From Zymoseptoria tritici IPO323 (taxonomy: Eukaryota; Ascomycota; Dothideomycetes; Mycosphaerellales; Mycosphaerellaceae): a DNA stretch of 64,000 nucleotides. Location: the NCBI RefSeq assembly GCF_000219625.1, contig NC_018210.1:1-64000 (forward strand). Direction: 5' to 3'. A program made the position numbers and the translations under genes. This document shows, in pieces, positions 4,497-63,220 of this stretch (position 1 is the stretch's first letter; every line of letters begins with the position of its first letter). The notes beneath the pieces were generated by a model, which saw nothing but the letters and a program-made list of their open reading frames with translations, searched no databases and was not told the origin of the DNA.

Positions 4497-5030
4497 GATC
4501 CGGAGGGGAATAGCGGACTGGAGAACGCTAGAGGAGGGCCAGACCCACCTGGAAGCGATAGAGAAGGGTTAGATCCTCCCGAGAACGCTGGAGGAGGGCT
4601 AGACCTACCTGGAAGCGACAGAGAAGGGTCAGATCCTCCCGAGAACGCTAGAGGAGGGCCAGACCTACCTGGAAGCGACAGAGCAGGGTTAGACCCTCCT
4701 GGAGGCGATGGAGGAGGGCTAGATCCTCCCGGAAGTACTAGAGGGACGTCGGATGTTCCGGAGAACACTGGGGAAAGACTAGACCCTCCTGGAAGCGATG
4801 GAGGAGGACCAGATCCTCCTGTAAGCACTGGAGGGACGTCGGATGTTCCGGAGAATACTAGGGAAAGACCAGACCCTCCTGGAAGCGATGGAGGAGGACC
4901 AGATCCTCCTGTAAGCACTGGAGGGACGTCGGATGTTCCGGAGAACACTGGGGAAAGACCAGACCCTCCTGGAAGCGATGGAGGAGGACTAGATCCTCCT
5001 GTAAGCACTGGAGGGACGCCGGATTCTTGG
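4497..5030 (+). repeat. In-frame 60-bp and 90-bp coding repeats
   Basis: About four 60-bp units (20 codons, Asp-Pro-Pro-Glu-Asn-Ala followed by Gly-rich and Leu-Pro-Gly-Ser-Asp) pass into 90-bp units. The conserved block GAGGGACGTCGGATGTTCCG recurs at 4741, 4831 and 4921, and a diverged copy lies at 5011. Both periods are multiples of three and in the same frame as the upstream 276-residue ORF, so they probably evolved as protein-coding repeats although a TAA now separates them. Confidence 0.8.
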
Positions 5031-17666: not shown

Positions 17667-18580
17667 CCCGGGACGTAAAAGCGGAGATCATCCCTCGAGG
17701 ATAAATTAGGCGTTTACCCTATCGAAAAGGAGTCTCTTCCCTCGAGATAAAAGTGGGCGTCCGATCGGTAGGACGTTAAAAGGCTGCGCTGCGACGTGGG
17801 AGACGTAGGCGACTGGCGAGGCCCGGACTGGCTCCGCACCGGACGATTAACTCTATCCGGAAGGCCCAGCAGTGGATGTGAGGCGTGTACCCTAGATCTG
17901 CGGCTGCTTCCTCTCAAAGCCGGGGAGCGGGAGGAAGAAAACTGGTACCTCTGCAGAGCAGTGGGAGGCTGGGAGGAATACGAAGGCGACGGCGTGGTGG
18001 GGGAGAGGAGTGGACGACGACGATCGCTGGAGGAGGAATTCTGGCCGAAGGGAAGACGGCTCTCCCCAAACCGTTCGGGAAGCACTTGTGGACTGGTGTG
18101 CAAGCGGCTCGATCGGAATCGAATGTCTCCGACAGTGGATACGCCGGACGGAGGGAGGACAGAGCTCCACTGGACGGTCTTGAAGCGGGATGTTCCCCCT
18201 CAACGAGACGGGGTTACAGTTTCGGGCGGATGAGGAGACGCACACCTTGTCCGTCACCTGGGAGGTTTGGAAACCCAAGGTACGATGGACGGTGAGCGAT
18301 TGCTGGAGCGATATTGTGCGTTGGGATGCGGACTAGCCCATCGGTGGTCTCTCTTTTTGGCGGTTGGTCAACTCGGGAGATGATGAAAAGGACACCGTAA
18401 AACGTGGTTGGGCTGGGAGTAGCTGCGGTGCCGTGCATCGCGAGGCGCTTTACGTGGGAGCGTGGGTCTGTTTCCTCCCCTCTGAAGACGGCCAAAAGAG
18501 CCGGGAGCAAGGGCTTGGATGGGGCTTCAGTTCAGATCAGGTGCAAAGGTAGACTAGCCTATATAAACAAGTACAATGAA

Positions 18581-18583
18581 CCC

Positions 18584-18617
<34 letters not shown>
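18581..18617. repeat. Interstitial telomere tract 1
   Basis: Six CCCTAA-type units (one CCCCTAA start, one CCCTAAA variant) in the same orientation as the terminal telomere. It separates the LINE-1 3' end from a second, 5'-truncated copy of the same 3' UTR. Confidence 0.97.
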
Positions 18618-18618
<1 letters not shown>

Positions 18619-18863
18619 GCCCATCGGTGGTCTCTCTTTTTGGCGGTTGGTCAACTCGGGAGATGATGAAAAGGACACCGTAAAACGTGGTTGGGCTGGG
18701 AGTAGCTGCGGTGCCGTGCATCGCGAGGCGCTTTACGTGGGAGCGTGGGTCTGTTTCCTCCCCTCTGAAGACGGCCAAAAGAGCCGGGAGCAAGGGCTTG
18801 GATGGGGCTTCAGTTCAGATCAGGTGCAAAGGTAGACTAGCCTATATAAACAAGTACAATGAA
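18618..18863 (+). mobile_element. 5'-truncated LINE-1 3' UTR copy
   Basis: It matches 18,335-18,580 over about 246 bp essentially base for base (offset 283) and ends in the same AACAAGTACAATGAA. It is bounded on both sides by telomere tracts. Severe 5' truncation is typical of abortive LINE reverse transcription. Tandem duplication of the unit together with its telomere tract is the alternative. Confidence 0.88.
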
Positions 18864-18887
18864 CCCCTAACCCTAACCCTAACCCTA
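18864..18887. repeat. Interstitial telomere tract 2
   Basis: Four CCCTAA units, starting CCCCTAA exactly as in the other two tracts, between the truncated LINE-1 copy and a different retroelement 3' end. Confidence 0.97.
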
Positions 18888-20147: not shown

Positions 20148-21173
20148 TCACTCCACACCGGGTGTCGCTGGCGACGGTGTAGAAGCCCGAAAGAAATCAG
20201 GATCAGCAAAATCGGCATCCGTAGGCGGATCTACCTTGTCCAGATAATGCGTGATACGATGCGGCAGGGCGTGCATGGCAGACCAGTCCCGGGCAGCCTT
20301 GAAATTGTGGCATTGATGAGGGCGATGGAAGTCCGGGTACTGGTTTCCCGAGGTATTCACCCACCGGTAAGGCATCAAACTGACGTCGGATCGGCATGTC
20401 AGGACCTGTCGGATCATATCCAAACAGTGCGATGTGTGCGCCAATTCCATGGCGGGTTCGGACACGACCTCCCAATTCTCCATGTACCAATCCCGGTTCA
20501 TGAACAGTTTTCGCCGAAGGGCATCCTGCAAGTCACAGAGTCAATCAGTCTGGCTTTTGCAGTTGTCCTTATACGCGGAACTCACAAGGCAGTGGAGCTG
20601 ATGGACGACATCGAGTTGGACGGGAAAGCCATCGTACTTATCCTCCACGCCTTTCATAACGACGTTGATTCGCGGATCGAGTCCATACTCGTGTCCCTTC
20701 TCCCGCGGAACGATGAATTCGTGATCTACATCAGAAGTCAGCCGAAGGTAGCTACTGCATGGAGATGAGCTTTACGCACTGCCTATGCCCAGCTCGCGGT
20801 GCCATAAATCGTCAACACGCCCTAAAGAGGGATGTTCATTCCATGCACTGGGCGTGAAATTCCAGTGCTCAAACCACTGCGTGTGGTATGTTCGATCGAT
20901 CGCACGCAGAGGAGAGTCCGCGGCCAGGTCATTGTCCTCGGGAGAGAGATCGAGGCGATATCTTGCAGACATGACACGGCTGGTGGTCCAGCTGGAGAGT
21001 ACCGCTGTGAGACATACGGTGGCGAAAGCAACGAAGTACCATCGTCTGCTAGGCTTTCCACTGGGCGTGTGGAATCCCGGTATTGGCTCGTCGTCTGCGT
21101 GCGATGTCAAGAAAGGCGCCGACTCTTTACAATCGCTGGATCGTTCGTCTACGCTGCTGATGCTCGGCTCCAT
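20148..21173 (-). CDS. UstYa/DUF3328-family oxidase (RiPP-type biosynthesis)
   Basis: Three exons, 20780-21173, 20586-20725 and 20148-20525, with introns of 54 and 60 bp (donors GTGCGT and GTGAGT), give 303 residues from ATG 21171-21173. A cytosolic N-terminus is followed by one membrane segment at about 45-61 and a lumenal domain. The two family signatures are present: HQLHCL at about 173-178, split from DALRR by the second intron, and HTSHCLDMIRQ at about 208-218. UstYa homologues oxidise ribosomal peptides in ustiloxin, cyclochlorotine, phomopsin-like and related pathways, typically cross-linking or cyclising Tyr-containing cores in the secretory route. Some act in other secondary-metabolite pathways. 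The divergent neighbour across the Harbinger insertion is a repeat-bearing Kex2 precursor, which supports a RiPP role. No tyrosinase or methyltransferase gene is visible in the window. Confidence 0.88.
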
Positions 21174-22039
21174 GTTATAATGCGATGACCTGCTCCAAGT
21201 GTCTCTCGTGGCTGCGGATGAGCGACCCTGTAACAAAGTTGCGAAGAATTACAGGTCTGAGGCCGCGTCCTCGCCTGGCGGTGGTGTGTTCTCGATCTGA
21301 CCGCGATGTGGGATGATCCTGATCGCAGACAGGCGCGCAGTAAAGTGTGTCAATGGCGCTCGCTGGTGTGATCATACATGCTGCTGACGTACCGCCGCAG
21401 CGCCTGAATGGGGAACAACTATGAGATCTTTCCGTACAGCAGCTCTTGACTCGGTTCCCTTCGAAACAAAGATCCTCTGTGATCTGTGCTTCGCATGAGA
21501 ATCCAGGGGTTGGGTGCTCACGGCACTTGGAGCGGGGCCTTCCTCGTTCGCGCTGCCGCGTGACAAGTCAAGCTTCTCGATGCGGCACTTGAATATGCAT
21601 GGTTCTTGCCTGACTCCATGGAGCTCTCAGCTCCCCGCCAAACTGCAACTGCTGCGGGGATCGCGATTGCCGTCGTCGGCCCGACGTCTTCTCATCGACG
21701 GTGGCGGCATCGGCTCCGACAAGCACACCGGATGACATGCTTTTTATTTCGACGATATCTCGTATACTTCGTCTCAGGAATGTCATCCTTGTCGGACACG
21801 TCGATCGAACTCGTCCGTCGCTTTCCATTGTATCCATGCACTTGTCTCTGCCGTGCCAGCTGGTAGAAAAAGTCGGTTCTTTAGCTCGAACGCACCTCCA
21901 GCTGCACACCTTCCTATGAGATGAGGGCTTTCGTATGCTTTCGGACAGCGTGTTCACCCGGGTTGTCGCCGAACCTTTAGCGGGCTGCATATCTCGTCAG
22001 ACTTGTTCCAATCTGCACATGGTCGCTCAGTCACTCCTC
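21174..22039. other. UstYa 5' flank up to the Harbinger insertion
   Basis: About 870 bp with no supported gene. It holds the left copy of a 45-bp direct repeat (21581-21625) shared with the precursor's upstream region. Before the transposon inserted, this was continuous with 31,049-31,927 as a shared divergent intergenic region of about 1.75 kb. Confidence 0.6.
21581..21625. promoter_or_regulatory. 45-bp direct repeat, left copy
   Basis: It matches 31,435-31,479 at 43 of 45 positions, begins TGCGGCACTTGAATATGCAT and contains the palindromes ATGCAT and CCATGG. It lies about 410 bp upstream of the UstYa start. A regulatory function is inferred only from placement. Confidence 0.45.
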
Positions 22040-22304
22040 TAAGGCCTTGTTTACCTCGCCACTGGTTGTAAACAAGTGGTGAATTTACTAGTTGCCGACT
22101 AGTTGAGGCTAACAAGTGCACACCGATGTTTACCAGCCGTGTGAACAAGTGATCTATACCTTCTTCAGTTAGTTTAGTCTGCGTTCTTGGCGTAAATACA
22201 TACCTTAGCTCGTTACTACTAGTCCCTCGTTCGTGCTGCAATCTACTACTGTCGTTGTATCTCTCTCTGTTTTATCACTAGTACACTGCTACTACTACTA
22301 TAGC

Positions 22305-23400
22305 CCTAAAGAAGCGCACCGCCGCCGATAAGGACGACTACGTAGAGGAGAAGTTTGTGTAGCTAAAGGCGCTGGCTAAGGAGATGTTTAACGCTCTAAA
22401 GGTCCTTAAGGATAAGGGCAGGATGACATAGGCTAGTAGCTTCCGCAAGGGCGATATCGAGGATGTCGTGCGCGAGCTAAATAAGTCGCAAGATGCGGTA
22501 GTAGTACGTTATCGACAGGCGGATAACAAGATAACCGACGTTAAGAAGATCTAGAAGGCATACACTAGTTACCTATCGCATATCAGTAGTTAGAGCACTC
22601 CGGTAGATAGTGTGCTACGGCATAAGAAGGAGAAGGAAGATAAGCACTATACTAAGTATCCGGAGTACAAGAGATTCCGGTATCGCTTGCCGCCGTTCGT
22701 AGAGCAGTATAAGTATATATATAGTAATAACCTAGCTACCGGTAACTAGGCATTCGAAGCGGACGAGCTCGGAGGTAATACACCGGCGCCTAAAGATAAA
22801 TAGCCTCCATCGGATCGCGAGGATGGCAGTGCGGCGGACGCAGATGGCGAGGTTAAAGAGACTGTAAGCAGGTCAGTTAAAGAGACTATAAGCAGGTTAG
22901 CAGCGAAGAAGAGGCCTAAGACGCCAACAACTATTATAAAGAAGGCAAGAGAGAAGGTAAGGGAAGCTAAGGCAAAGGAGCCTAAGCGTATCTATGCGAG
23001 GGCGACGCTAGTAGTAGTATCGTCGTCGGACGAGATTAATGCTATAGAGTCACCTACGTTAGAAGCATTAGCACAGTCGTTAAGGAGGGCAATAGAATTA
23101 TATAGCATTACGAAAACGAGAGTAGCTTAGCCTCCTTAGTCGACGTTAACGCTAGCAATACAGAAGTGCTAGGAGCTTCCGGCGTTTAAGAAGATGCTAA
23201 TTAAGGACCGCTTTATGCTTATCGAGAAGGTGCTTCCGCAGGGCAAGAACGTAGAGGTAGTCGCCGGCATAGCCGGTAAGATGTTCGAGTACTAGCTTAA
23301 GATAAAGGTACAGTAGGAGAAGGTCGCGGCTATGCCGTATGCTATGCCGAGTCCTTAGTTATCCGCGTCGCGCTCTCAAACACTAGTCTATTAAAACGCC
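22305..23400 (+). pseudogene. Harbinger Myb/SANT-like DNA-binding protein, RIP-damaged
   Basis: Conceptual translation with stops shows a helical N-terminal domain (LKALAKEMFNALKVLKDKG), a segment VVRYRQADNKI, and a C-terminal part like the fungal Myb/SANT transposon proteins (YPEYKRFRYRLPPFVEQY, then ATGN). The in-frame stops are mostly TAG, often where Trp or Gln would be expected. In this superfamily the SANT-like protein helps the transposase reach the element ends. It cannot be expressed as a whole. Confidence 0.6.
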
Positions 23401-24411
23401 GCTTAACGACTTCCATCTCTTACATCGAATAGTTAGTACTATTTATAGCCGCCGCGCATCGACATCCGCACTTCCATTGCACACCCAATATTGACCCGAT
23501 CATCACCAAACACGCACCATTCGAAAGCCCTTATCAAGGCCGTTCCAACGAACCCGCATTCACCCTGCTGCCCTTAAAACCCACGCCGCTACTGGAGTTC
23601 AAAGATTCACCTTGTTGCCCCCTTTGGGGTGCAGAAAAATTTGAACTCCGGGATTTGGCCCCCACCTCCGAAACCTTATTCCGACCTTACCTCCCCCACA
23701 CTCGAAATATTCCCTGTTTAGGGCATTACACAAGAAAGGTTCACAACCTGTACTACAACACTTTAACACACCACAACACAACCAATACGCCGCCGATCCG
23801 GACGCCGTGTAGCCCGTTTGAAAGCCCTCGACGAGAGCTTTTATTCCAGCTATCAAACGCCTAATTTGGTCGAATTTTGAAAGAGCCAAAGGCCAAACAA
23901 GAGCAGTGTTCCCAGGATACACAAACATACACATACACATACACTCAGTTCTCTCTACACTAGAGTTACCTGTCGTCCTACGCCGCCGAGAGAGGAAGCT
24001 AAAGGAGCAGTGTAGTTTAGTAAGGACGAATTTGCACCTCTAGGGATTAGAGTAGTAGTACTAGCTGTATAGCTAGATACTCTGTATAGAGTATAGGCCT
24101 ACCTTTCCCTAGAGACAAAGGTTGTCCCGAACCTGCTACGGCTACCCGCAGAACGCCTCTAAAGCCTGCTATAAAGACGCACGTTGCTGCAGGCCAGAGT
24201 ACTTCCTAGAAGCAGAGGTATATTTATATATCTCTTCTCTCCTCTTTGAAGTATACCTTCTCCTATACTATTGTATAGTAGGGAGAAGAGTGCCCTAGTG
24301 TCGCAAGTAGGCTAGGACCCGAACGCGATTGGAAATAGAGACGAACAAGCAGCCCTCTCGGCGTAAGACTGCTGAGCCTCTTTTCAAACAACAAACAACA
24401 ACAACAAGACA

Positions 24412-24950
24412 ATGTCTACCGAGACGGAAATGGAAATGACAGACGCAAGCTCAGCCCCTCAGACTCCAAAAGCTACGGCTAGAGGGGACGAGGAAGTTAC
24501 GTTTGAGTCTCTCAAACCCCTGCCGTTGCCGGAGGAACTACTAAAAAGAACCGGCATTCCTTTCATACCTAGGAAAAGGCAAAACCCCTTCGAATTTAGT
24601 ATCTCCCCGACTCGCAGCCCTTCTCTCGGAAAGAAACAAACACTCTCTTACACGCCCGCGAACGAGAAGATCCTACAAGCCCGACAGCTACTAGTCGAAG
24701 CGGCGGGGGATCTAGTCGGGTTTCCAGGAGAACAAACCCGGGTTCTCGACCTTCTCGAAGTCTTTCGGCACTTTACCGAGCGTACAGACTTTAGGACAAC
24801 GTCCCAAATCCTCGCAAAGCAAGTCTCGAACCTAGAAACGACAACAAAGAAACTAGCAGCACAGGCGAAGAAGCCTACTTTCGCAGACGTTGTTAAGGGA
24901 GACAGCGGATCCGCTACCTCTACCTCTACCTCCTCGACAACAAAGACAAC

Positions 24951-24983
<33 letters not shown>

Positions 24984-25590
24984 GTGGACGACCGTCTCCC
25001 GGAGGGCTAGCAAGCCGAAAGAACAAGCAGAACCGATGCCTCTTATCCTTGTACCAAAGGATAAAGAGAAGGAACTCGACTAGATCGCAACCCGAGACAA
25101 AATCAACGACGCTCTTAAAGGCGAAGACCAAGAGCTAGCTGTCCTTGCGATAAAGAAATCGTTTCGGGGCAACATTGTCCTAAACTTTGCAACAGAGAAA
25201 GCCCGCCAACGAACGATCGATAGCCTTACTAAGGTTACCGACATCGTAGGCGAGGCACAGGTAATAAAGGACTCTCTCTGGCACAAGGTCGTAGTCCACG
25301 GCGTCTCGACCGCGAACTTCAACACGCCAACGGGCCTACAGGACATTCAACGAGAAATTGAGACCTTTAATAGAGGTCTTAAACTCGCAGGCACCCCGAT
25401 TTGGCTAACGAACGAAGAGAGAAGAAGGACTCTTACTGGGGCGACAGTTCTAGTAGGTTTTGCTACCGAGGAGGAGGCAAAAAGGGCTATTCAAAACCGT
25501 CTATACGTAGGCGCGGACAGCCTAAGAGTCGAAAAGGCGAAGGATCGTATACAACAGAAAGGGAGGCCCCTAGAACGTTCTACATGTTAG
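24412..25590 (+). pseudogene. Nested LINE ORF1 (gag-like), one TAG stop
   Basis: The frame runs from ATG 24412 to TAG 25588-25590, with one internal TAG at 25081-25083. The first part is acidic and Pro/Thr-rich. A (CAA)n run encodes about eleven Gln (24,951-24,981). The second half (about 25,100-25,560) looks like the RNA-recognition-like domain of Tad/I-clade gag proteins. Its stop overlaps the ORF2 start in ATGTTAG (25584-25590), an arrangement that would permit termination-reinitiation. Confidence 0.7.
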
Positions 25591-28500
25591 AACACTCTCT
25601 ACGGATTTTCCACGTCAATCTTAACCGATCTATCGAGGCTACAGAGTCTACCTTAGACGTCGCGGTTAAGCAGAAAGCCGACCTTCTACTAGTCTAGGAA
25701 CCGTGGACTATAGAAGACCCGATAACAGGCTACAAAGAGACAAGATCTATCGCACACCGGGAGTACAACCAGCTATTCCCAACGACTACGGATTCCACGA
25801 TCCGGCCAAGGACAATGCTATATATTAGCACAAGACTCAACGTCAATATCTCTCCTATTTTATTAGACGACAGCGACATACTTTCCTTTGTTATTTCAGA
25901 CAAGAGGGGCAACAAGATCCAGATAGTTAATCTCTACAACGAGAAAGACCTTCGAGATACCGAGAACCTGCAAAACCGACGAACAACAGAGAGAAGCCTC
26001 TACTCTCTACGCAACACGTTCCTTCCAAACACTCTACTAGTAGGAGACTTTAACCTTAGACACCCGTCCTGGGATCCGAGGGGAAAGGATACTACTAGTG
26101 CCCGCGAATTTATAGAGTGGATAGAAGACCAGGGCTTTACTCTACGTAATACGATAGGTGTCGGGACCTTCTATAGGCCGCACCTAGACGCAGAGTCGGT
26201 CCTAGACCTAACGTTTACAAGAGGATCCTTATCTACGAAAGAAATCGACTGGAGAACGATTCCGACAGGCTCAGATCATAAGGCTATATCTATAGACCTT
26301 ATTGGCGCGCAAGATCGAGCCCAACAGAAGAAAGTAGTTCTAGATATAGCTTCCGCGGATTGGGAACTGTTTACAGATCTCCTAATAAGCAAGGCGACGT
26401 CTATTAACTATACGAACTCCCTCGACGACATCGCAGACTCCTTTACCTCGTGTATTACCGAATCGATGCGGGGAGCAATCCCAGAGAAAGTAGTACACGC
26501 CTGCGCAAAACCTTGGTGGAACAGAGAGCTACGCACGCTACGCCGCACAATGTCTAGAACATATAGACAGACCTTTACCTGCGGACGCACGCCGACGCTA
26601 GACGAGAAAGAGGCGTATACGAAAGCGAGAAACGAGTACTTCCAAGCTATTAAAACAGCTAAGAAGAACTACTGGAACGCTTTCCTCGAAAAAGAAGACT
26701 CGAAATCTATCTTTAAAGCTATGTCCTATACTAGGAATAGCAGCCGAAGACAGATACCTACAATAAACAACGAAGATTCTTTCGAGGGGAAATGTAAGGC
26801 CTTCTCCGAAGCCTTATTTCCGCGCCCTCCTGCCGAGGAACCTCTACCTAGCCGTTAGGAAGCGTATACAGCCGGGGATTGGGGCTGGACTACGCTAACC
26901 GAAGAGGAACTCGCTGCCGCCTGTAGTACGAAGATAGTAAAAGGAAAAACGCCGGGCCTAGACGGTATTACGCAAGCTATCATTAGTAAAGCGTACGGCG
27001 CTATTCCTATTACCTTTCTACGTATATATAGGAGGCTACTCGACGAAGGACACCACCCCCGATGCTGGAAAGTTGCGATAGGCGCAGTTCTAGCAAAGCC
27101 GGGAAAACCAGACTATTCGGTCCCTAAGGCCTACCGAGTTATCTCTCTCCTAAACTGCCTCGGTAAGATTAGTGAGAGAATACTCGCAAAACGCCTAGGG
27201 ATTATCGCAGAGACGAAGCCCCTTCTACACGACTCGCAGTTAGGAGGGCGAAAGAAGAAATCGGCTATCGATACGGTGCTTCTCTTAACGAACGAAATCG
27301 AGGAGAATCGAAGAAAGAAAAAGAAGACTTCGGTTATCTTCCTCGACGTAAGAGGAGCATACGACTACGTTGCAAAGAACCGACTGTTAAGAATAATAAT
27401 CCAGTTAAGGCTTCCGCATAGCCTTATACGTTGGGTTCAGTCGTTTATAAGCAATAGACGCCTACGAATAGCATTCGACGGACAGATACAGGAATTCCAG
27501 GACGTAGAGATCGGCGTTCCGCAAGGCAGCCCGATGTCTCCTATCCTCTTTCTTATCTATACGCGCGACATATTCTTCTCGCTACAAGGAGTTACTCCTA
27601 GTTCCTACGTCGACGACATTAGACTATCTACCTCGTCTACGTCCCTTAAGAAGAACTCTAAGGTACTAGAACGTGAGGCAAGAAGGCTAATAGACCTAGG
27701 AAAGAAGAACTCGATTGCTTTCGACCTAGCAAAGACAGACCTAGTACACTTCTCGAAAGGGAAAGGGTCCGATTGCCCGGTAATTCTTCCAAACGGCGAT
27801 ATTGTTCGCCCGGCAAAGAAAGCGATAAGGTGGCTTAGGATTTGGCTAGACGCCGGTCTTACCTTTAAGGAGCACATTGCAATAAGATCGGCACAAGCAC
27901 AAGCAGCATTCTATCGATTAGAAAGACTAGCAAATACCGAACGCGGTCTATCTTCTATATCGTTAAGAAAGATCTACCTAGCCTGCGTTACTACAATAGC
28001 AGACTACGGGGCCCCGGTTTGGTGGCGGTCGAAAAAGAGCATAAAACCTCTAGTATCTCTACAAAGTAAAGCTTGTAGAAAGATCCTAGGCGTTTTCCGT
28101 ACCGCCCCAAACGTCCCGTCCGAAGTAGAGTCAAATCTCTTCCCCCCGGATCTACGCCTAGAGAGGCAGTCAATTTTATACTCTCTACGCGCAGCAAAGC
28201 TACCCGAAAACCACCCCGTAAGACTCGCTATCCAAAGCGCGCCTTCGGATACGCGAGAAGTCCGACACGAGGACTCGAGAGAGATACTCCCGCAAAAACG
28301 ACAGAGAACACAGATACAACTACTCTGTTATCGACTCCGACAATACAAGCATTTCGTAGAACACGAGAGGGCTAACTACGCAAAAGACGATCTCTTTAGC
28401 GTCTGGAAAACCCGATACGAAATAGCAAGACAACGGGAGATTAATAAGGTACCTAGGAATACAAATAGCTACCTTAGTCGATTTCTATAGAGCTCGCCAG

Positions 28501-28829
28501 GAAAACACAGAATAGGAGGAAGACGCGCTTTAACTAGTGCCTTCTATACTATCCTATTAGGACACGGATACCTAAAGTCCTATCTCTATCGCTTTGGACA
28601 CGTAACGACGCCAGACTGCCCTTGCGGACGACGAGAAACAGCAGAACACCTCGTATGTAGCTGCCCTATCTACGATGTATTTAGGCCACTACCGCTACGA
28701 CAAGCACAATCTCTACTAGAAATAGTAGAAGATAAGGAACTCCGGAAACACCTTACTACCTTTCTCTCGGACACAAAGATTGCTTCTAGGTCCTGGCACC
28801 TAGCAAGAGGCGAAGACGAGACCGTCTAG
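25584..28829 (+). pseudogene. Nested LINE ORF2: endonuclease-reverse transcriptase, three TAG stops
   Basis: The frame runs from ATG 25584 to 28827-28829, with TAG at 25695, 26856 and 28488. The endonuclease has FHVNLNRS, LLVGDFNLRHPSWDP and the TGSDHKAISIDL box. The RT has GKTPGLDGI, YRVISLLNCLGKISERIL, FLDVRGAYDYV, GVPQGSPMSPILFLIY and the catalytic YVDD. The C-terminus has the cysteine motif CPCGRRETAEHLVCSCP. No RNase H domain is apparent between RT and the C-terminal motif. Domains are well preserved apart from the stops, so decay is limited. Confidence 0.92.
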
Positions 28830-29050
28830 CCTACACTCCTTTTACTTTTCCTTATTTGTCTTTCTTTAAAGTCCTTCGATACTAGCTGGCTACTATCCTA
28901 GGCACGGGTCTTTCCCTAAGGTCAAGAGATACGAGAGAACAACGATTGTACATAGATAGACTGCTGTCGCGAGACAGCCGTCCTACATAGTTATAGACTC
29001 CTACAGGACGTAAATGGAACAAACAAACAAACAAACAATATAGCCGCCGC

Positions 29051-29559
29051 AGCTGTATAGTTAATATCCTCCGTAGCCGAATTATTAGGGTAGTGTATCG
29101 TAGTCGTAGTCGCAGGCGTAGGGTAGTTATAGTAGTAGTAGTGTTAGTGAAATAGATAAAAGAATTCGGATATAAAATAAGGTAGACGTTGCAACGATTC
29201 GAGCATTTTGGAGGGGTGCGGCTTAGCACTAAATAGGGGTGGAGGAGGTATTAGGAGGGCACATTACAGCAAAAGATGTGCAAAAGTCCTAGCACAGTCT
29301 ATACTATTAATTTTGGTAGGGTGTTGTTGGATTTTAAGCTGTTTTTTCGCCCGATTAGGAAGGAGGTAAAGGGTCTAGTCCTAGATAGTATTAGATTTTG
29401 AGCTATTATCCTAACTATTCCTCCTCTTAAAGTATAACTAATTACCTTTTAAATATTACTTCCTCTATTAATTCTACCTTCTTCCACCTTTATTAATGCT
29501 TAACCCTATAGTTAATAGTCGTCTTATACTGCTCCCACATCGCTACTGCGATGTTATTA
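29051..29559. other. Harbinger internal sequence between its two genes
   Basis: Continuation of the Harbinger element right of the LINE's target duplication. It is TA-rich with tracts of GTAG, and no coding region is supported. Confidence 0.5.
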
Positions 29560-30760
29560 CGCACCTTTAGCATTGCCCTATCCTACTGCGAATTACTAGC
29601 ACCCTTAGCTACGCCCTTACGAACCTCGAAGCCGACATTGATATCCTATAGCCGCTAGTTCTACCCCTCCGAATCTAGCGACTAGCTATAGGCATATATA
29701 AAGTTGTAGACGACGTAGTAGGCGACGACGAAGCGTAAGTTTATGCGGACACTATAGCCCTTATTAGCGCCGTCAGCGAGGCACCTAAACCGGAGCTTGT
29801 AGATGCTAAAGATCCTCTTAATACAGTTGCGGTATTAAGCATAGCGGAGGTTAAAGAGTTCTTCCTTAGTACGTAGCTTTATCTTCGCCGCCTCGAACTC
29901 GCGGAGGTAGTAACGAGTCTTCGGATATAGTACTAACACACGGCGATTCTTCTTCGAGTAGCTACCGTCCGCGAGGTAGTACTTCCTAGCTAGCACAATA
30001 AAGCTCCTCTTAGCGGCGGCATTAAGGACGGTTATATCGTTAGCAGATCCTTTATATCCTAGCAACACGTATACGAACCGCATGTATAGGTCGCATATAG
30101 CTAATACGTTCTACGAGACTCCGGCCTTCCGATTGCGGTAGTTGTTAGCATCGACACTACGCACCTTTATCAGTACATAAGTGCTATCTAGCGCACCAAG
30201 GCAGTCCTTAAAGAAGGGGTAGAACTTAGGGTCGTCTACCTTATCTCGAGGGTAATCCGGCTCTATTAGAGGCTGCATATAGTTACCGGCTATCTTATAA
30301 AGGAGCTTACTAATCCGCTTAATGTAGGAGTGGAAGCTATTAGTCGAATGCTAATAGATCTAGCGCAGCACACTATATAAGGCGTTGTAAGAGACATAGT
30401 GCATAAACACTACTACCTGCTCTATAGGGCTAACCTCTCGACCGGTTAAACCTCTGCTCTTAAGCTCTCGAATAAGACTCTACAACACGTCCTTGTTTAT
30501 ACGTGTAATCGCCTTAGCATACTAATTAGGCCTATACAGGATATTATAGCATATGCGAGCACCTCTGTCTGTATCCGATGCGGTAGTGCGAACGCCTAGT
30601 AGACGATATTACTCTCGCAATAGCCGCCGGTTTGATGGACGCAACAATAGTGTATCTAGCACTCGCAACACCTCTTAATCCACCGCCTCTTCTACTAGCC
30701 CTTCGACCGTAGCTTGTACGGATTCCGGCTCTATCCAGACGACGACGACGGTAACAGCGA
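29560..30760 (-). pseudogene. PIF/Harbinger DDE transposase (DDE_Tnp_4), RIP-damaged
   Basis: Minus-strand conceptual translation gives DCLGALDSTYVLIKV (first catalytic Asp region), MRFVYVLLGYKGSANDITVL (second Asp region), then KYYLADGSYS, RYYLREFEAAK and EELFNLRYA, followed by LRNCIKRIFSIYKLRF. This order is diagnostic of Harbinger transposases. The central frame 29,835-30,083 is open; elsewhere stops interrupt it. It would have excised and reinserted the element at TWA targets but is now inactive. Confidence 0.85.
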
Positions 30761-31048
30761 GGGCGACAACGAGATGCACGTAATAAGAACGCGAGATGAA
30801 TTTACGTATGTATATCGCGTTCATGGCCAACAAGGGCGCTAACAAGGGCACGAACTAGTGTCTCGTCGACACTAGTTAACTAGTTAGCGCAATAGTGACC
30901 ACATTCGGCAATCCGGAGCCCTTACCAACTAGTGCTTAACAAGTGGCTAACAAGGGCCCTTATGTCGGTAAACAACACCACTGGAGCCACTAGTTGTGAA
31001 CAAGTGGTCACTTGTTGGCAACAAGTGGACGAAGTAAACAAGGCCTAA

Positions 31049-31927
31049 TAATCGAATAGTTCCTCTCATCAGGATTTCTTAGTCTGACATGGTTTCCCCA
31101 GGGGGTCTATCAAGCTTGGCCTGCCGTTCTGTCAAGGATTGCGTCTCCACCATAACCACTTCACCTGATGCTTTACGTAACGCTGTTCTCGTCGCCCCTC
31201 GCGCTTCATCGCCTTATGCATGCCCAGAACTGGGTTCATCTCAACATTCTCCTCGTGTTGTGTACCTCGTAATGACGGCAGCTCTGTGGGACATCTCATC
31301 GTCAGCGACTGCCGTTGAACAATGAAGCTTTTAGGCTCCATGAGAGCACCTGACACACTACGTGGCAGCGCGCTGCTGTCGAGTCAAGTGCCGACCACCG
31401 GCAGATAGCACGTTTCGATCTCTTAGCAAAGTTATGCGGCACTTGAATATGCATGGTTCTTGTCTCACTCCATGGAGCTTTGATGCCATCAACACCCCTA
31501 GCAATGACGGAATCCAGTTCCACTTGCAGAACTCGCCTCATGGTCTTCGGTAGATTTACGCCATCAAAGCTATTATGTTACCTTTGATGCCATCAACACC
31601 CTTAGCAATGACGGAATCCAGTTCCATTTGTAGAACTCGCCTCATGGTCTTCGGTAGAGCATCGGGCATCTGGGATTGGCCTAGGTAACCTGTTCGTTCT
31701 CTCGTAAGAGCAGGGGGTCCATCGCTGGAGATGAGGGGTTGTTCAGAACGTCTGCCTGGCAGCCCCGCGGCCGGTGGACACGTTAAGAAGGCATATATTC
31801 GCTCCTCTGATCTGGAGCAAGCTCAACGCCATATTAAGACTCCTTCCTTTGGGACAGCTATACACCAGATCAAGACTCTTTGTCTCGAACCTTTACAACG
31901 CATCATACCTCGCAGTCATCCGCAACC
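31049..31927. promoter_or_regulatory. Upstream region of the peptide precursor
   Basis: It contains the right copy of the 45-bp repeat (31,435-31,479) and, abutting it, a tandem duplication of about 73 bp with a 104-bp period (31,479-31,551 and 31,583-31,655). No gene is supported, although one strand of the duplicated unit reads as open peptide. The precursor's promoter should lie in the last few hundred bases. Confidence 0.5.
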
Positions 31928-32638
31928 ATGAGATTCATCGCTGCCACTACTATCGCGCTTCTCAGCAGCGCTGCAATTGGCATGCCAGTTGCCAAGCACT
32001 CCGGCGAGGTTCTGAACAATCCCGATCCAGTCTACCTAGGAGCTAGCATTAAGCGGTCGGAACTTGAGGAGCGGAAGAAGCGCGGCGAAATCGCGAACAA
32101 TCCCAATCCAGTCTACACGGTACCTGAAGTCGAACGGTCGAAACTTCAGGAGCGGAAGAAGCGCGGCGAAATCGCGAACAATCCCAATCCAGTCTACACG
32201 GTACCTGAAGTCGAACGGTCGAAACTTCAGGAGCGGAAGAAGCGCGGCGAAATCGCGAACAATCCCAATCCAGTCTACACGGTACCTGAAGTCGAACGGT
32301 CGAAACTTCAGGAGCGGAAGAAGCGCGGCGAAATCGCGAACAATCCCAATCCAGTCTACACGGTACCTGAAGTCGAACGGTCGAAACTTCAGGAGCGGAA
32401 GAAGCGCGGCGAAATCGCGAACAATCCCAATCCAGTCTACACGGTACCTGAAGTCGAACGGTCGAGACTTCAGGAGCGGAAGAAGCGCGGCGAAATCGCG
32501 AACAATCCTAATCCAGTCTACCCTGGACCTGGCGTGGAAAGAGCAAAGCTCGAGGAGCATGGCAAAAGCCCAACCGCCGACGAAACGATCGCGAAGCGCC
32601 AAACTCCAAAGTCGAGCGTAGTTGCAAAGGATGCCTAG
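31928..32638 (+). CDS. Secreted Kex2-processed repeat precursor (dikaritin-like RiPP candidate)
   Basis: ATG 31928-31930 starts 236 residues. Residues 1-18 form a signal peptide (MRFIAATTIALLSSAAIG). Then come seven 27-residue units: a divergent first (NNPDPVYLGAS), five nearly identical (GEIANNPNPVYTVPEVERS), and a last variant (NNPNPVYPGPG). Units 1-6 end ERKKR, a strong Kex2 site, while the last ends EEHGKS and passes into a tail with IAKRQ. The block NNP(N/D)PVY is the most conserved part and holds the single Tyr of each unit. Signal peptide, dibasic-bounded repeats and an invariant Tyr core match precursors of UstYa-dependent fungal RiPPs, and the UstYa gene is the divergent neighbour. 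Alternatives are a pheromone-like or structural Kex2 peptide. The core peptide and product are unknown. Confidence 0.82.
   Translation: MRFIAATTIALLSSAAIGMPVAKHSGEVLNNPDPVYLGASIKRSELEERKKRGEIANNPNPVYTVPEVERSKLQERKKRGEIANNPNPVYTVPEVERSKLQERKKRGEIANNPNPVYTVPEVERSKLQERKKRGEIANNPNPVYTVPEVERSKLQERKKRGEIANNPNPVYTVPEVERSRLQERKKRGEIANNPNPVYPGPGVERAKLEEHGKSPTADETIAKRQTPKSSVVAKDA
32064..32560 (+). repeat. 81-bp coding tandem repeats of the precursor
   Basis: GGCGAAATCGCGAAC recurs at about 32,084, 32,165, 32,246, 32,327, 32,408 and 32,489, a strict 81-bp period. The central copies are almost identical at synonymous sites too, so they were recently expanded or homogenised. The repeats make long open frames on both strands, and only the frame with the signal peptide is credible. 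Confidence 0.95.
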
Positions 32639-33290: not shown

Positions 33291-34393
33291 CTATACGCGG
33301 TAGCGTTGATCGAATTCGTCCATTCTCCTCTTTATTGCGTCCATGCACTTGTCATTCTCATATCGATTGAGATCCGGCCATCCGTGCTCCAGAAAAATAG
33401 TGCGGATCGCGTCCATTTCCTGCTCCTCTTCATCATCAGGGCCTCTATCGAAAGCCTCGACGACTTGTATTCGATTCAGGGGAATGTAGTTCAACTCTCG
33501 AAAATAAAACTTCAGCATCTCGAAAAAATCCGGAATCGCCCATGCGCAGCGCAGACCTGTTCCAGCATCCCGCCACTCCACATCGCCTTCCTCCGCGTAG
33601 TCGGCAGCGTAGTCAGCTATTGGCGGAAACTGCACATCAGCATTCTGCGCGATCCGTGTTGGGCCAGGAGTGCAGCTGCCGCCAGGAAAGTAGATCAGGC
33701 CAAGATGAGTATCAAGAAACATCTCGGTGTCGCGAATGTGGGTGAGTCCAACGACGTGGGACGGGATTTGCCTGTAGCTCCCTTGTGATTCAGTTAAGAT
33801 GATTTCAGCATCTTCGTCCGAAAGCGGCAGCCTCTCAGCAATAGATGCCCAGTCTTTCAATTCAAACATGGCTCCAGCTGTTGTTCTTTGGTCAGCCGCG
33901 GTATCGAGACATTCTTGCTTGCCAACGCACCATCCACTGGCTGACGGGGAACTGGTCGTATGTAGGGCAGGCGGCCGAGCAGCTCTACAACTTCATCGGT
34001 TTTGCCAAAATTCCTCATGTTCTCCACCGTCATCCCAGGCCATACTCCTCCGTCGGGTGGTGTTTGGACGAATGCTGGGTCCAGATACATTGTAGACAAG
34101 AATTCGTAGTAGCTCCTAAACGCCGCAATGGTCTCCTCCCGGGAGTAGGTGATATTGCAAAGATCTTGCGTTTCTGAAATCGATAAGCGCGGGACTCTGG
34201 AGTCATCTTCGTCGGAGGAGTCTCGACCGTCGTCGTGGTCGGTAGGCTGAGCGTTTGACGTGATGGATTGACGGAGGAATTGCCGTACGAACAGTTGGAG
34301 AAGGATTCGTTGCAAGGTGGAAGAAGGAATGTAAAATGGTTTCGAACGGCGGACGGATTGTAAGCAGTTAAGCTTGGCGCGGTGTCTGGGCAT
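33291..34393 (-). CDS. Unknown fungal protein, paralogue A
   Basis: Two exons, 33931-34393 and 33291-33877, with a 53-bp intron (GTGCGT donor, GCTGAC branch, CAACAG acceptor) give 349 residues from ATG 34391-34393. What looks like a frameshift near 33,860 is fully explained by this intron. After an Arg-rich start and an acidic linker come blocks shared with the next gene: LSISETQDLCNITYSRE, IPSHVVGL, EMFLDTHLGLIYFPGG, CAWAIPDFFEMLKFYFREL and HGWPDLNRYENDKCMD. I recognise no family with confidence. The Trp-Ala-Ile-Pro...Phe-Phe-Glu-Met pattern faintly recalls SUKH/Smi1-Knr4 folds, which is speculation. No signal peptide or membrane segment is clear. Confidence 0.72.
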
Positions 34394-34604
34394 GCGCTGC
34401 CTTGCATGGTGCGTCACGAGGTTGCACAATATCCATTGCTGTGTCCCAATTTCGCATGCTCCCCCGCCACTTCTGTCGTCGATCGGCGCGCGCTTCAGCA
34501 AACAGCTCCACTCCTGTGGATCTTCGTCGGGCAGTATGCCCATTGGCAAGTTCGCTGAATCCTGAGCAAGCGGCTCAGCTCCCCTATTCACGAACTCAGT
34601 CCAT

Positions 34605-35579
34605 CTAATGATCAAACAACTCCTCCCACCGACTGTCCAACTCGTCCATGCATTTCTCCTTCTGGTACCGGGCAAGATCTGGCCATCCATGCTTCTGAAA
34701 TATCTGACGAACGATCGGAAAGGCGGCGGGCATGCCTCGGGCATTCTCTTCATCTTCACCAAAGGCCTCTGCAACCCAAACCCGGGTAAGTAGGAGGTAG
34801 GTGAGATTCCGAAAATGATACTTCATCATTTCAAAGAACTCGGGTATCGCCCATGCGCATTTCAACCCCATACCGCCGGTTCGCCAGTCATTGGCCTCTT
34901 CAGTGGATGCGTAGTCATGTGGATCGTCTGCCACTGGCTTGAAAGGACCATAGGTGTCTTGCGCAACAGCGGTGGGACCTGGAACGTAAATCCAGCCCGG
35001 GAAGTAGATTACGCCGAGTTGAGTATCCAGGAACATCTCGAAGTGGGCAGCAGAGACAAGCCCAACGACATGTGACGGCACATGTTCGTAGACACCTTCG
35101 GTCGGTTGTCGATAGAGATTCATGGTAGACTCTGGACACGAACCGTGTTCGCTGGAGACGTTTCGAGCAATCTTGGTCCAGTCTGTCAGGGTAAAGCCGC
35201 CACCGGGAGCACCTCCAGCTGTCGCTCGTCCATTAGCAACTGCGTGCTTGTATTGCGGATCTTGCATACCTTTGCCTTCTTGCCCAGAGGGGAATCGAGT
35301 GTATGGGAGACGACGAAGCAATTCCGCAACTTCCTCTGTCTTGCCTAATGTGCGCATGGTGTCCACGGTGATCTCCGGCCACCCGCCCTCCGGCGGTTGG
35401 TGGACCAGTTCGGGTTCCATGAACATGGCCGTCAAAAACTCGAAATACCCGTTGAAGGCCGCAATGGTTCCCTCACGTGAGTAGGTGATATTGCAAAGGT
35501 CTTGTGTCTCTGATATTGACAAACGGCCGTCGTCCGAGTCGTGGGCACTGCCATCGTCGCTGCCAGGTTCGACTGACAT
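34605..35579 (-). CDS. Unknown fungal protein, paralogue B
   Basis: A single exon of 324 codons from ATG 35577-35579. It is a tandem paralogue of the gene 211 bp downstream, with the same acidic N-terminus and the same ordered blocks (LSISETQDLCNITYSRE, PSHVVGL, EMFLDTQLGVIYFPGW, CAWAIPEFFEMMKYHFRNL, HGWPDLARYQKEKCMDELD). It lacks A's intron, having continuous Gly-rich coding sequence at that point, so the intron or insert arose or was lost after duplication. Function is unknown. Both copies are intact, which argues for purifying selection or a recent duplication that escaped RIP. Confidence 0.75.
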   Translation of the reverse strand: MSVEPGSDDGSAHDSDDGRLSISETQDLCNITYSREGTIAAFNGYFEFLTAMFMEPELVHQPPEGGWPEITVDTMRTLGKTEEVAELLRRLPYTRFPSGQEGKGMQDPQYKHAVANGRATAGGAPGGGFTLTDWTKIARNVSSEHGSCPESTMNLYRQPTEGVYEHVPSHVVGLVSAAHFEMFLDTQLGVIYFPGWIYVPGPTAVAQDTYGPFKPVADDPHDYASTEEANDWRTGGMGLKCAWAIPEFFEMMKYHFRNLTYLLLTRVWVAEAFGEDEENARGMPAAFPIVRQIFQKHGWPDLARYQKEKCMDELDSRWEELFDH

Positions 35580-35831
35580 GATGTGGATGCTGCTGAAGAG
35601 TGTTTCCAGGACGGGCTTTGTATGCGCTTTTTGATGGCTGAGCCGATGCTGAATGATTGCAATTTCGGAACGAGATATATCAATGGTTGATGATGTAAGT
35701 CATGCAAGCAAGGGACGGATCGCACTCTTGTCAAAGCTGGGCGTGAAGGGGACAGAGATCTTCTGCTACAGCAATCGTGAGTCAAGAAAGGAAATCTCCC
35801 AAGGGCAATTGCGTTCAAAACGAGGACCGCT

Positions 35832-37523
35832 TCACAATTTCGCATGTTCCCTCGCGACCTCCGTCGGCGCAAGCTTGAGCTCCAAGCTCTCATTCCACAA
35901 AGCATAGTGCTTCTCCTCGCCATGTTCATCATGATGGCAAAAGTCTCGCTTCTTGATATTCTTCATCCTGTACTCCGGCAGTCGCAGTACCTCTTCTCCC
36001 GTGGCAGGATCCTTCTTGACCCAAACGTACAGGTAATCGTCCGCCTTTTCCTCGGGAGAAGCCTCCTCGCGAGACCATTCCTTAGCCGGCAGCGCGGCGG
36101 GACGATATTTGCACTCCGTGGTACTCATACGATGCCAGACTGTCGGATGGATCGTCTCGCGGAGGTGCTCGGGATTAATCAGTTGGGAATTGGCATCCTT
36201 CCAGACTCCTGGCTCTCGAGTGTACCAGAAACGAAAAGTGGCGATGAATGAACTGACATAATACATGGGAGTATTGGTCTCCCCCATGATACCGTCGGAC
36301 CAGCGAATAAGGCGTTGATTGGCGTCCTCGGGAGATGTAGGGATTGTGCAGTTCGGGCCATTCTCGATCATGCTGGTGTTGTTGATCCGATTCAGAATTG
36401 GATATCGCAGAGTAGCAGGGGTGAATTGCAGCAAACTTTCGCTTGAGATCTGGTCCACCATCCAAGCAAAGGTGATCTCGTCGACACTGTTGGTGTCAGA
36501 CTTGGCGTCGGCATGGCCACCGATATCACTATGATAGCCGGGGAACCAACATTGCCGCAAGTCTACCTTGGAGCACTCGGGAGTGATGTGCCACTTTGTG
36601 AGCGGGAAGTTGCCGCGAGTTTCGTCCAGCGCCATTGCGTGAAATGCGTGCTCGATCTCTGCGCTGTCGTTAAAACTTCAGATCTCAGTGCAGAAGAGTC
36701 CAAATGAACACTTACTGGGATGCAGAGTTGTCGAGTGCCAGTCTGTGTCCTTGCCAGGCTGATCAACTCGTCCAGACATACCCACACTTCCGACGGTGTC
36801 AAAAACTCCAACGGTTTTGAGGGTGATGTGTTGATGGGTCCAGGTCTTGATCCACTGCATGCGTGTGGGAAGTTCCTTGATGTTGTTGCCATCCTTGTCG
36901 TGGTAATCGTTCCAATTCAAACCGAGCTCACCCTTTCTGACTCGGTTCTTGAACCAGCCTTCTTTCTCGAAATCCCGGGTCTTGCGTTTCTTGTACTCCT
37001 CAAAGATCTCGTCGAAGTAGTCCATCATGCCGGGTGTCATGAGACCAAAGTCGCAGATGAAGCTGCCAAGAGTTCGTGCAGTGTAAGCCCCACGGCTGAA
37101 ACCAAAGAGCGAGATCTCATCTTCAGGTCCGTAGTTGTTCACGAGGAAGTTGTAGGCTTCGCAAACCTTTTCATTCAGACCCACACCAAAGCCAGCTGCG
37201 GCACATCAGTGGCGATCTCTTTCAGTAGCCGGATGCACCGTACCTTGTTGGGCTGCATTGAACTTGGTGAGACTGCCCGTCCCAACGCCAGCCTGGTAGT
37301 AGACGATCTGCGGTATCGGCTTGCCATGATGCGTGAAGCCGACATTGGCAATGGCACGACTGAGTCTTGCAACGTTGGTGGGATTTGTCTCTGTTCCTTG
37401 GTTGGAAGAATTGCCAGTGCCGTCGCAGCAGACAATAAGGCGTTTCCTCAGCGTGCCCGATGCGTGAATGTCTTCGCAGACTTTGCAGTCATCTTGGTGG
37501 TCCTTGGAGTGTTTTGGGGCCAT
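35832..37523 (-). CDS. DUF2235 (Tle1-like phospholipase/hydrolase) protein
   Basis: Three exons, 37244-37523, 36716-37195 and 35832-36658, with introns of 48 and 57 bp give 528 residues from ATG 37521-37523. The N-terminal strand KRLIVCCDGTGN and the nucleophile elbow LFGFSRGAYTARTLG (G-x-S-x-G) are the hallmarks of DUF2235, the alpha/beta-hydrolase domain also found in bacterial type VI effector Tle1. FDTVGSVGM carries the likely acid region and WFPGYHSDIGG the catalytic His. The family is known for phospholipase activity in bacteria; fungal members are poorly studied. No signal peptide is seen, so it is probably cytosolic. It lies head-to-tail after two paralogous unknown proteins on the same strand, with about 250 bp between it and paralogue B. 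Confidence 0.88.
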
Positions 37524-52859: not shown

Positions 52860-54100
52860 TAGCCATTGAGTCATGCATCCGATATCGGTTATCGGTCTAT
52901 ATATATAGCACTGTAGGTAGTAGTTAGGAATTTAATTACTTTTTAGCTCTAATCTTTAATAGGTTATAAGCCCGGTTAGCGCTTTAGGCATTAATTGCCG
53001 CATCTTTACGATTATAAGCCTTATTAATTAATTATTACTACAACTATATGTACTAGCTATATGTAGGGACGGTTTAATTAACGTCTAATCGTTTTTAAAA
53101 AACTAGAGGCTGTTTAAAGAATCTAGAGAATCTAGTATATCTAGCTTAGAGATTCGATACACCGATGTCGCCGTTAGACTCCTTAGTCCGGTTTAATAAA
53201 CTAGGCCTTATCTTTTTAACTATTAGTATAGTCTATAGTTTAACGCTATTATCTACGACAATCTAATATATCTAACACGTTAATAAGGCACACTTACTAT
53301 TAATTTGAAAAACCTAACATACTATTATTACGGCATCTATACTTTTAATATAGCTAGAACGGTATTATAGGGCAAATAGTCTACTACAACGGCCTATCAA
53401 ATTTTTAAGGATTTTATAACCTAATGCGGTCTAGCTAGTGTCTAAGAACTTACTTAGTAACTAGAGATTATAATTCTACTTCTACCGTACACTAACTATT
53501 AAAGGTTATTAATTTTCTATAATAGCTCCTCGAAGACTATTAAACGAGACACTAGAGCAAAAAGCCGAACGTAAACGTTTTATAAACGCTAAATACAAGC
53601 GCGTAGAAAGACATTATAAGGCATAAGTAAAGATTTAAGCTAAAGAATCTCGAAGATAAGTATAATTTGAACTTAACGTAAAGAAGGCTATAGGCTTAAA
53701 CTCGAAGAAACAACTGTTTTCTTCTCTCGAAGTACCTAACCCTACTAGACTAAAACCTATTATATTCTTCGACATTAACGACTAGGGAAATACGATAACC
53801 GAAGGGGTACGAAGCGGTATAAGTTCTAAACACCTACTAAAAAAGCCTAAAACTGTCCGCTCGAAACCTACGCGCCGTACTAAGGCTACACTTACTTTAA
53901 CTACCGATATAACAACTACTACGTAAGCTTCCGTATTAAATTCAAACCCTCTAGCCTAGGGAAACTCGGCCTTATTATTAACTTTATCCTCTAAAGACGA
54001 AGACGACTTAGACTTTCTATTTAAAAAGCTACCTATCTTAAACAAAGTAGGAAAACAACCTATTAAAGATATACTACTATACTCTCTAATTAAATCTCGC
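52860..54100. other. Unassigned RIP-mutated sequence
   Basis: The most AT-rich part of the block. A charged Lys/Arg-rich reading (about 53,540-53,740, plus strand, with stops) could be the tail of a transposase, but I cannot name its family. It may also include the copia 5' LTR, which I could not delimit. Confidence 0.4.
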
Positions 54101-56415: not shown

Positions 56416-56744
56416 TATAAGGACACCCTTACGATAACGCCTCCTACCTATCCTAACCTAGACTATCCTAGTACTATAGATTACCGGTACTATCTTATCT
56501 AGCCTAGACTAGGACATCCTATAGAGGGACGAACCTTACGGGCGTACGACGGCCCCCGAGCGGACGTTAGACTACGACCGGTGCCTAGTCTAGGCGGAGG
56601 GACGTATTTAGTAACACGAAGGGTAGGTATATAGCCTCGGGGGACGCTCTCGTCTATTCCCTTCCTTATCGAATCGACTCGTTATATTCTATAACTATTT
56701 GTTTTCGGTATAAGCCTACATTCCCTCTTAAGGTACTTCTAACA
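56416..56744 (+). repeat. Gypsy 5' LTR (329 bp)
   Basis: Begins TATAAGGACACCC and ends CTTCTAACA. The canonical TG...CA ends have become TA...CA. It is the same length as the 3' LTR, with ten mismatches between them, all CpA/TpG versus TpA. Confidence 0.95.
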
Positions 56745-59960: not shown

Positions 59961-59999
59961 TCTTCTAGACGGCATTCTAACCGCATCTGGACTATAATA

Positions 60000-61480: not shown

Positions 61481-61499
61481 AAAGGACTAACTGCGCGCG

Positions 61500-62886: not shown

Positions 62887-63215
62887 TATAAGGACACCCT
62901 TACGATAACGCCTCCTACCTGTCCTAACCTAGACTATCCTAGCACTATAGATTACCGGTGCTATCTTATCTAGCCTAGACTAGGACATCCTATAGAGGGA
63001 CGAACCTTACGGGCGTACGACGGCCCCCGAGCGGACGTTAGACTACGACCGGTACCTAGTCTAGGCGGAGGGACGCATTTAGTAATACGAAGGGTAGGTA
63101 TATAGCCTCGGGGGACGCTCTCGTCTATTCCCTTCCTTATCGAATCGACTCGTTACATTCTATAACTATTTGTTTTCGGTGTAAGCCTACATTCCCTCTT
63201 AAGGTGCTTCTAATA
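62887..63215 (+). repeat. Gypsy 3' LTR (329 bp)
   Basis: Pairs base for base with 56,416-56,744 apart from ten transitions. It starts after the polypurine tract and ends CTTCTAATA, followed by the target duplication GCGAA. Confidence 0.95.
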
Positions 63216-63220
63216 GCGAA

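Follow-up and report, generated by a model that had tools for sequence, protein, structure and literature searches.

A Kex2-repeat precursor gene and a UstYa oxidase gene, parted by nested transposons and probably forming one RiPP locus, near a chromosome end of Zymoseptoria tritici

We analysed the first 64,000 nucleotides of contig C9 (C9:1-64000, the whole of which we call the window) of Zymoseptoria tritici, a fungus that causes a major wheat disease and whose genome has 39,686,251 bases in 21 contigs. The window starts with CCCTAA telomere repeats (positions 1-161). At 20-32 kb from these repeats, in transposon-rich DNA, it carries two divergent genes, one encoding an oxidase of the UstYa family (PF11807, DUF3328) and the other a Kex2-repeat precursor (KEP). 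A KEP cyclised by a UstYa homologue is termed a dikaritin in the excerpts of a review used here (PMC10512285). We consider here whether the two genes form one locus for a ribosomally synthesized and post-translationally modified peptide (RiPP).

The UstYa gene lies on the minus strand at 20148..21173 and encodes 303 residues in three exons, with introns read by hand at 20726-20779 and 20526-20585. Its product matches PF11807 with an E-value of 5.1e-42 and 144.6 bits, where the curated Pfam cut-off is 25, which places it in the family. It has a hydrophobic N-terminal anchor and two HxxHC motifs. In an alignment of 28 UstYa sequences, chosen from 38 homologue matches, the first motif (H173/H176/C177) is invariant and the second (H208/H211/C212) is kept in at least 90% of the sequences. 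An annotated protein of 303 residues from Z. tritici ST99CH_1A5 (P0001) is 97% identical to it from end to end, and the three-exon splice model agrees with this relative since the alignment covers the whole length. The 303-residue UstYa/DUF3328 protein with both HxxHC motifs that the original prediction had claimed is therefore well founded. No solved structure of a UstYa relative was found by sequence, the two listed matches having E-values of 0.56 and 0.69. The closest other relatives are a 49%-identical protein of ST99CH_1A5 (P0002) and proteins of Parastagonospora nodorum and two Pseudocercospora species, with 37-41% identity over part of the length. The best match of P0002 in this genome is the UstYa gene of the window itself, and because no match is better, P0002 seems to be a strain-variable UstYa paralogue apparently absent from this genome.

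The precursor gene is intronless and runs on the plus strand from an ATG at 31928 to a stop at 32638, encoding 236 residues. Its N terminus is clearly hydrophobic and, judged by eye, signal-like; with a short leader it occupies 31928..32002, ahead of unit 1. Seven units of 27 residues follow at 32003..32569, each with its only Tyr in the motif NNP(N/D)PVY (7/7). Units 1-6 end in KKR, and unit 7 ends in GKS, followed by an IAKR site. The seven Tyr-containing units, most of them ending in KKR, had been described in the original prediction and were found again here. A KEP has at least three similar repeats parted by dibasic Kex2 sites, and the present gene has seven units, six of which end in KKR. 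Tandem Repeats Finder independently reported an 81-bp array with 5.8 copies at 98%. At the DNA level units 2-5 are identical and unit 6 is one base off, while units 1 and 7 differ by 20 and 21 bases. The other reading frames across the array are also open, as expected for a repeat of 27 codons. Since openness alone does not discriminate, the precursor frame was chosen for its ATG, the signal-like N terminus and the regular spacing of its dibasic sites. Another array candidate, at 4782-4988 of the window, was rejected because it has no Met in frame.

The unit sequence was found nowhere else in the searches made. This genome has one full copy of the precursor, besides which there is a single weak match with 26% identity and 9 stops. 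Pfam gave three matches to the precursor, each under its cut-off. The strings NPNPVY and IANNPNP were found in none of the papers listed by a text search of the literature, and the occurrences of NNPNP among these papers look unrelated by title.

Two stretches of the unit remain candidates for the core, i.e. NNP(N/D)PVY, kept in the seven units, and YTVP, present in units 2-6. The four residues after Tyr are LGAS in unit 1, TVPE in units 2-6 and PGPG in unit 7. Should constraint mark the core, NNP(N/D)PVY, the core of the original prediction, would be favoured, because it is kept in all the units while the residues after Tyr vary. In known precursors the flanks can be conserved while the cores vary. 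YTVP resembles the Y-x-I-P/G cores of the ustiloxins and phomopsins.

The general build of the precursor, a signal-like start and Kex2-separated repeats, is shared with the alpha-type mating pheromones according to excerpts of PMC6339444, and the precursor could be read as such a pheromone. Its units, however, have neither Trp nor Cys. Both residues are typical of the alpha pheromones of filamentous ascomycetes. In addition, the annotated pheromone KEPs have no DUF3328 neighbour, with three exceptions, in the parts of a fungal KEP survey that cover them (PMC7329392). We consider a pheromone highly improbable, and a precursor processed together with the UstYa enzyme remains the reading that we prefer.

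The start codons of the two divergent genes are 10.7 kb apart, and the gap is mostly transposon DNA. The divergent arrangement noted in the original prediction stands, but the two genes are not adjacent. A DNA transposon with terminal inverted repeats (TIRs) occupies 22043..31045 in the shared upstream region. Its TIRs of ~38 nt (22042-22078 and 31009-31046) are 87% complementary over 38 nt, with TAA on both sides. We take a TAA target duplication to be typical of Harbinger-type elements, and the Harbinger-like type of this element is our guess. Its open reading frame (ORF) of 82 residues (29835-30083) has no Pfam match, and partial relatives of the element occur elsewhere in the genome with 67-85% identity. 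Nested in it on the plus strand, at 23457..29038, is a 5.58-kb long interspersed nuclear element (LINE) with endonuclease and reverse transcriptase domains, flanked on both sides by TATAGCCGCCGC. This LINE appears to be young, since the genome holds at least 21 other near-full-length copies at 97-99% identity (22 of 420 candidates scored).

Outside the transposons, the gap consists of what would be the left half (21174..22042) and the right half (31049..31927) of an ancestral divergent intergenic region, the latter with a 77-bp direct repeat (31478-31554 and 31582-31658). When both elements are removed, the genes are divergent with a start-to-start distance of ~1.75 kb (1748-1752; 1748 with one TAA kept). 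The two nested transposons with their flanking duplications therefore account for the 10.7-kb gap, and the UstYa homologue gene near a KEP gene that a dikaritin locus should have is found here, divergent and at ~1.75 kb without the insertions. We also observed a 46-bp direct repeat (96%) at 21580-21625 and 31434-31479, outside the transposon and ~0.4-0.5 kb upstream of each divergent gene, with no other copy among the genome matches listed.

An insertion of this kind raises the possibility that the locus is decayed or silenced in this strain, i.e. that the insertions split a shared promoter and the product was lost with both frames still open. The 9.0-kb nested insertion between the divergent genes, the transposon-rich DNA and the short distance to the telomere repeats would fit with this. 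However, neither reading frame is disrupted, another strain has an annotated UstYa with 97% identity, and the inner repeat units are identical, which implies that they were homogenised or expanded recently. Loss of the product is in our view rather unlikely. We most probably have here a RiPP gene pair of known kind that either works or was disturbed recently.

The same layout was found elsewhere in the genome. A six-frame search gave 61 matches to PF11807, and we sampled 25 ten-kb windows around other UstYa matches (three window pairs adjoin, and 10 of the 61 rows fall outside the sample), which were scanned in six frames for similar segments between dibasic sites. A Kex2-repeat array stands beside UstYa in 7 of the 25 windows, divergent from the UstYa match in L011, L019, L022, L024, L027 and L030 and convergent with it in L025. 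In each of the seven, a start codon and a hydrophobic stretch precede the first unit by no more than ~225 bases. The start codon is reached only across a short intron in six of these seven sister arrays, and L011 also reads unspliced. An array in L020 and one on the minus strand of L022 were rejected as low complexity, and the extra or antisense frames of the arrays in all seven windows were rejected as precursors.

The pair of the window brings the UstYa-precursor pairs of this genome to eight or more, and most of them are divergent (7/8, binomial P of 3.8e-4 at an assumed 25% divergent). In the six other divergent regions, 946-2455 bp separate the matched UstYa part from the precursor ATG, and the transposon-free ~1.75 kb falls inside this range. 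For a genome with an assumed 100 KEPs, the calculated expectation is 0.63 in the 25 windows (250 kb), with a P of 4.5e-6 for seven or more. The consensus unit contains Tyr at seven of the eight loci, while L027 has Trp without Tyr; the repeat units of the eight loci are unlike each other by eye. The 7-mer TCGAGAA occurs in all seven divergent regions (that of the window and those of L011, L019, L022, L024, L027 and L030), whereas a shuffled set has 0.04 words of this kind; it may mark a shared site or have arisen by chance.

These pairs bear on the explanation that the precursor yields a secreted peptide that is cut by Kex2 but stays linear, such as a signal, wall or effector-like peptide, with the UstYa gene 10.7 kb off as a coincidental neighbour. 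Most fungal KEPs have no DUF3328 gene near, such a gene being reported for 22% of 7878 KEPs, at a mean of 3.09 genes away, in excerpts of PMC7329392. The genome studied here is rich in UstYa genes, and its KEP-paired UstYas form no clade, both of which agree with a chance neighbour. On the other hand, transposons make up most of the gap, and finding the divergent UstYa-KEP layout at six other loci is far above calculated chance. The same excerpts give Tyr in the repeats for 65.6% of the KEPs with a DUF3328 gene near, versus 38.2% (PMC7329392). A linear peptide beside an unconnected oxidase seems unlikely to us. Because the gap consists of nested transposons and the divergent layout recurs at six other loci, besides one convergent pair, the RiPP locus of the original prediction is very probably one locus. 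We consider it probable that the precursor and UstYa form one RiPP unit making a cyclic peptide.

Several points weigh against this reading. The 10.7-kb gap, taken alone, makes a single locus less credible. No precursor homologue was found at E <=1 among the 8000 scored candidates from a collection of 5.8 billion proteins, which includes the Z. tritici UstYa. In a tree of 35 UstYa rows, many of them exon pieces and with weak deep branches, the KEP-paired UstYas are scattered, with 7 label changes versus a shuffled mean of 7.4 (232 of 500 shuffles as low). Common descent of the KEP-paired UstYas is not supported by this count, which is at shuffle level, and the descent of the enzyme therefore gives no mark of a peptide cyclase. 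The exons of the sister arrays come from a GT-AG search that was permissive and had no shuffled control, and the chance co-location figure is a calculation, not a background measured in random windows. Words of 8 to 10 bases common to the seven divergent regions are at shuffle level. Finally, the locus may be incomplete, because several sister loci have nearby enzyme genes while none was seen here.

A Pfam scan of 18 neighbouring ORFs in the seven sister windows gave several enzymes or transporters, and for this reason we rejected the idea that the sister loci have as few further genes as the present one. The matches are an EamA transporter and an aldo/keto reductase in L022, a PhyH dioxygenase in L024, an M3 peptidase and an acyltransferase in L025, a fungal transcription factor, a DNA polymerase and a lactonase in L027, and a P450 in L030. 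Among the neighbouring ORFs scanned in L011 and L019 none has a Pfam match, and no tyrosinase match was found in any of the seven windows. We observed tyrosinase-domain matches beside UstYa matches at C4:1684589-1691926 and C6:755440-757462, both of which are candidate sites of ustiloxin/phomopsin-like clusters.

In the window itself, we scanned 20 proteins or ORFs with Pfam. The neighbours include a Tle1-like phospholipase domain, an ESF1-like protein, a chloride channel, CFEM proteins and MoeA. The 20, from which short or multi-exon genes may escape, included no methyltransferase, P450, peptidase or kexin, and tyrosinase has no match within C9:1-64000. This agrees with the original prediction, which saw no tyrosinase or methyltransferase. 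Neighbouring frames at 33291-35699 on the minus strand encode proteins of ~190-360 residues that resemble each other by eye and gave no match in Pfam; they adjoin the gene with the Tle1-like phospholipase domain at 35832-37205. A 283-bp tandem duplication (100% matches in Tandem Repeats Finder) lies at 18335-18887 and includes an interstitial telomere-repeat stretch at 18582-18618. The far part of the window, 52900-64000, is a long GC-poor stretch (37-46% GC in 2-kb steps) whose longest stop-to-stop frame has 92 residues; it looks like degenerated transposon DNA.

If the pair works as known dikaritin systems do, the precursor would enter the secretory pathway through its putative signal peptide, and Kex2 would cut after each KKR to give peptides of the type GEIANNPNPVYTVPEVERSKLQERKKR, whose C-terminal basic residues would probably be trimmed. 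The membrane-anchored UstYa would then oxidise each unit at its single Tyr to form a side-chain cross-link. Several copies of one cyclic peptide might thus be released from each precursor and secreted. The linear peptide GEIANNPNPVYTVPEVE has a computed monoisotopic M of 1840.884. The corresponding values are 3150.690 for a complete unit and 2582.298 for a unit lacking RKKR, and for the candidate cores 816.377 (NNPNPVY), 478.243 (YTVP) and 706.354 (YTVPEV). A 2025 paper reportedly deals, by its title, with a copper-dependent DUF3328 enzyme, and copper dependence is therefore a lead here. The signal entry, the Kex2 cutting and the UstYa cross-linking in this scheme, with the export that would follow, are taken from what is described for the family in excerpts of PMC10512285 and PMC9233826.

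We speculate further, as a tentative and possible scheme only, that the genome carries eight or more compact RiPP loci, in each of which a UstYa gene has its own precursor gene, divergent from it or in one case convergent. The present one would make a new cyclic peptide with one enzyme, with the Tyr of the Asn/Pro-rich NNPNPVYTVP linked to Val, Pro or Asn instead of Ile, and the amount made would vary among strains through the transposon-split promoter region.

The recurrence of such pairs in one genome is a more interesting result than the single locus. The excerpted 2022 review (PMC10512285) puts the number of reported dikaritins at five, which is few compared with the 7878 predicted KEPs (PMC7329392). 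Recurring divergent UstYa-precursor pairs would provide a set of candidate enzymes matched to their substrates, and comparing them could show which peptides UstYa enzymes prefer (Tyr or Trp, flanking prolines). Our data also indicate that transposons can part a two-gene RiPP unit and so hide a locus from neighbour-based mining.

A description of the locus or of its sister pairs was not found in the literature searched, the survey supplements being outside the search; antiSMASH-predicted RiPP clusters and an ustiloxin-like cluster of Z. tritici do appear there. The latter is described with 10% similarity to ustiloxin and with expression data in excerpts of PMC8939313. Compared with the ustiloxin and phomopsin dikaritins (Umemura type G-10), the locus has in common the Kex2-repeat precursor, the UstYa partner and the Tyr-containing unit, and YTVP is close to YAIG and YVIP, the cores quoted in excerpts of PMC7329392. 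It differs in having Val as the third core residue instead of their Ile, and its precursor has no EDYxI (motif as given in excerpts of PMC6339444). Neither this motif nor a tyrosinase was found in the window, so the ustiloxin/phomopsin type does not apply. Umemura's Zymoseptoria precursor has the core YVIP according to the same part of PMC7329392, and this core is not present in the precursor of the window. A search for YVIP or DYxI(G/P) gave none in the window and one unrepeated occurrence in the 25 sampled windows.

The epichloecyclins of Epichloe, encoded by GigA, are similar in their imperfect repeats of 27 residues, in the Kex2 processing that is thought likely for them and in the Tyr cross-link of their products, both of which we propose here as well (excerpts of PMC7317419 and PMC9233826). 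GigA, however, belongs to a four-gene cluster with a kexin gene (PMC7317419, likewise in part), whereas no kexin is among the 20 window proteins scanned, and the unit sequence differs. The asperipin-2a locus of Aspergillus is alike in combining a Kex2-repeat precursor, there with a signal peptide and here with a signal-like start, with one DUF3328/UstYa enzyme, as given in excerpts of Umemura 2020 (PMC7329392). Asperipin-2a is bicyclic through two internal tyrosines in the excerpted account of PMC9233826, while the units of the window have one Tyr each, in NNP(N/D)PVY. The original prediction considered a minimal set with a single UstYa unusual, and this part of it was not upheld, since the single DUF3328 protein of asperipin-2a (PMC7329392) provides a precedent for such a set.

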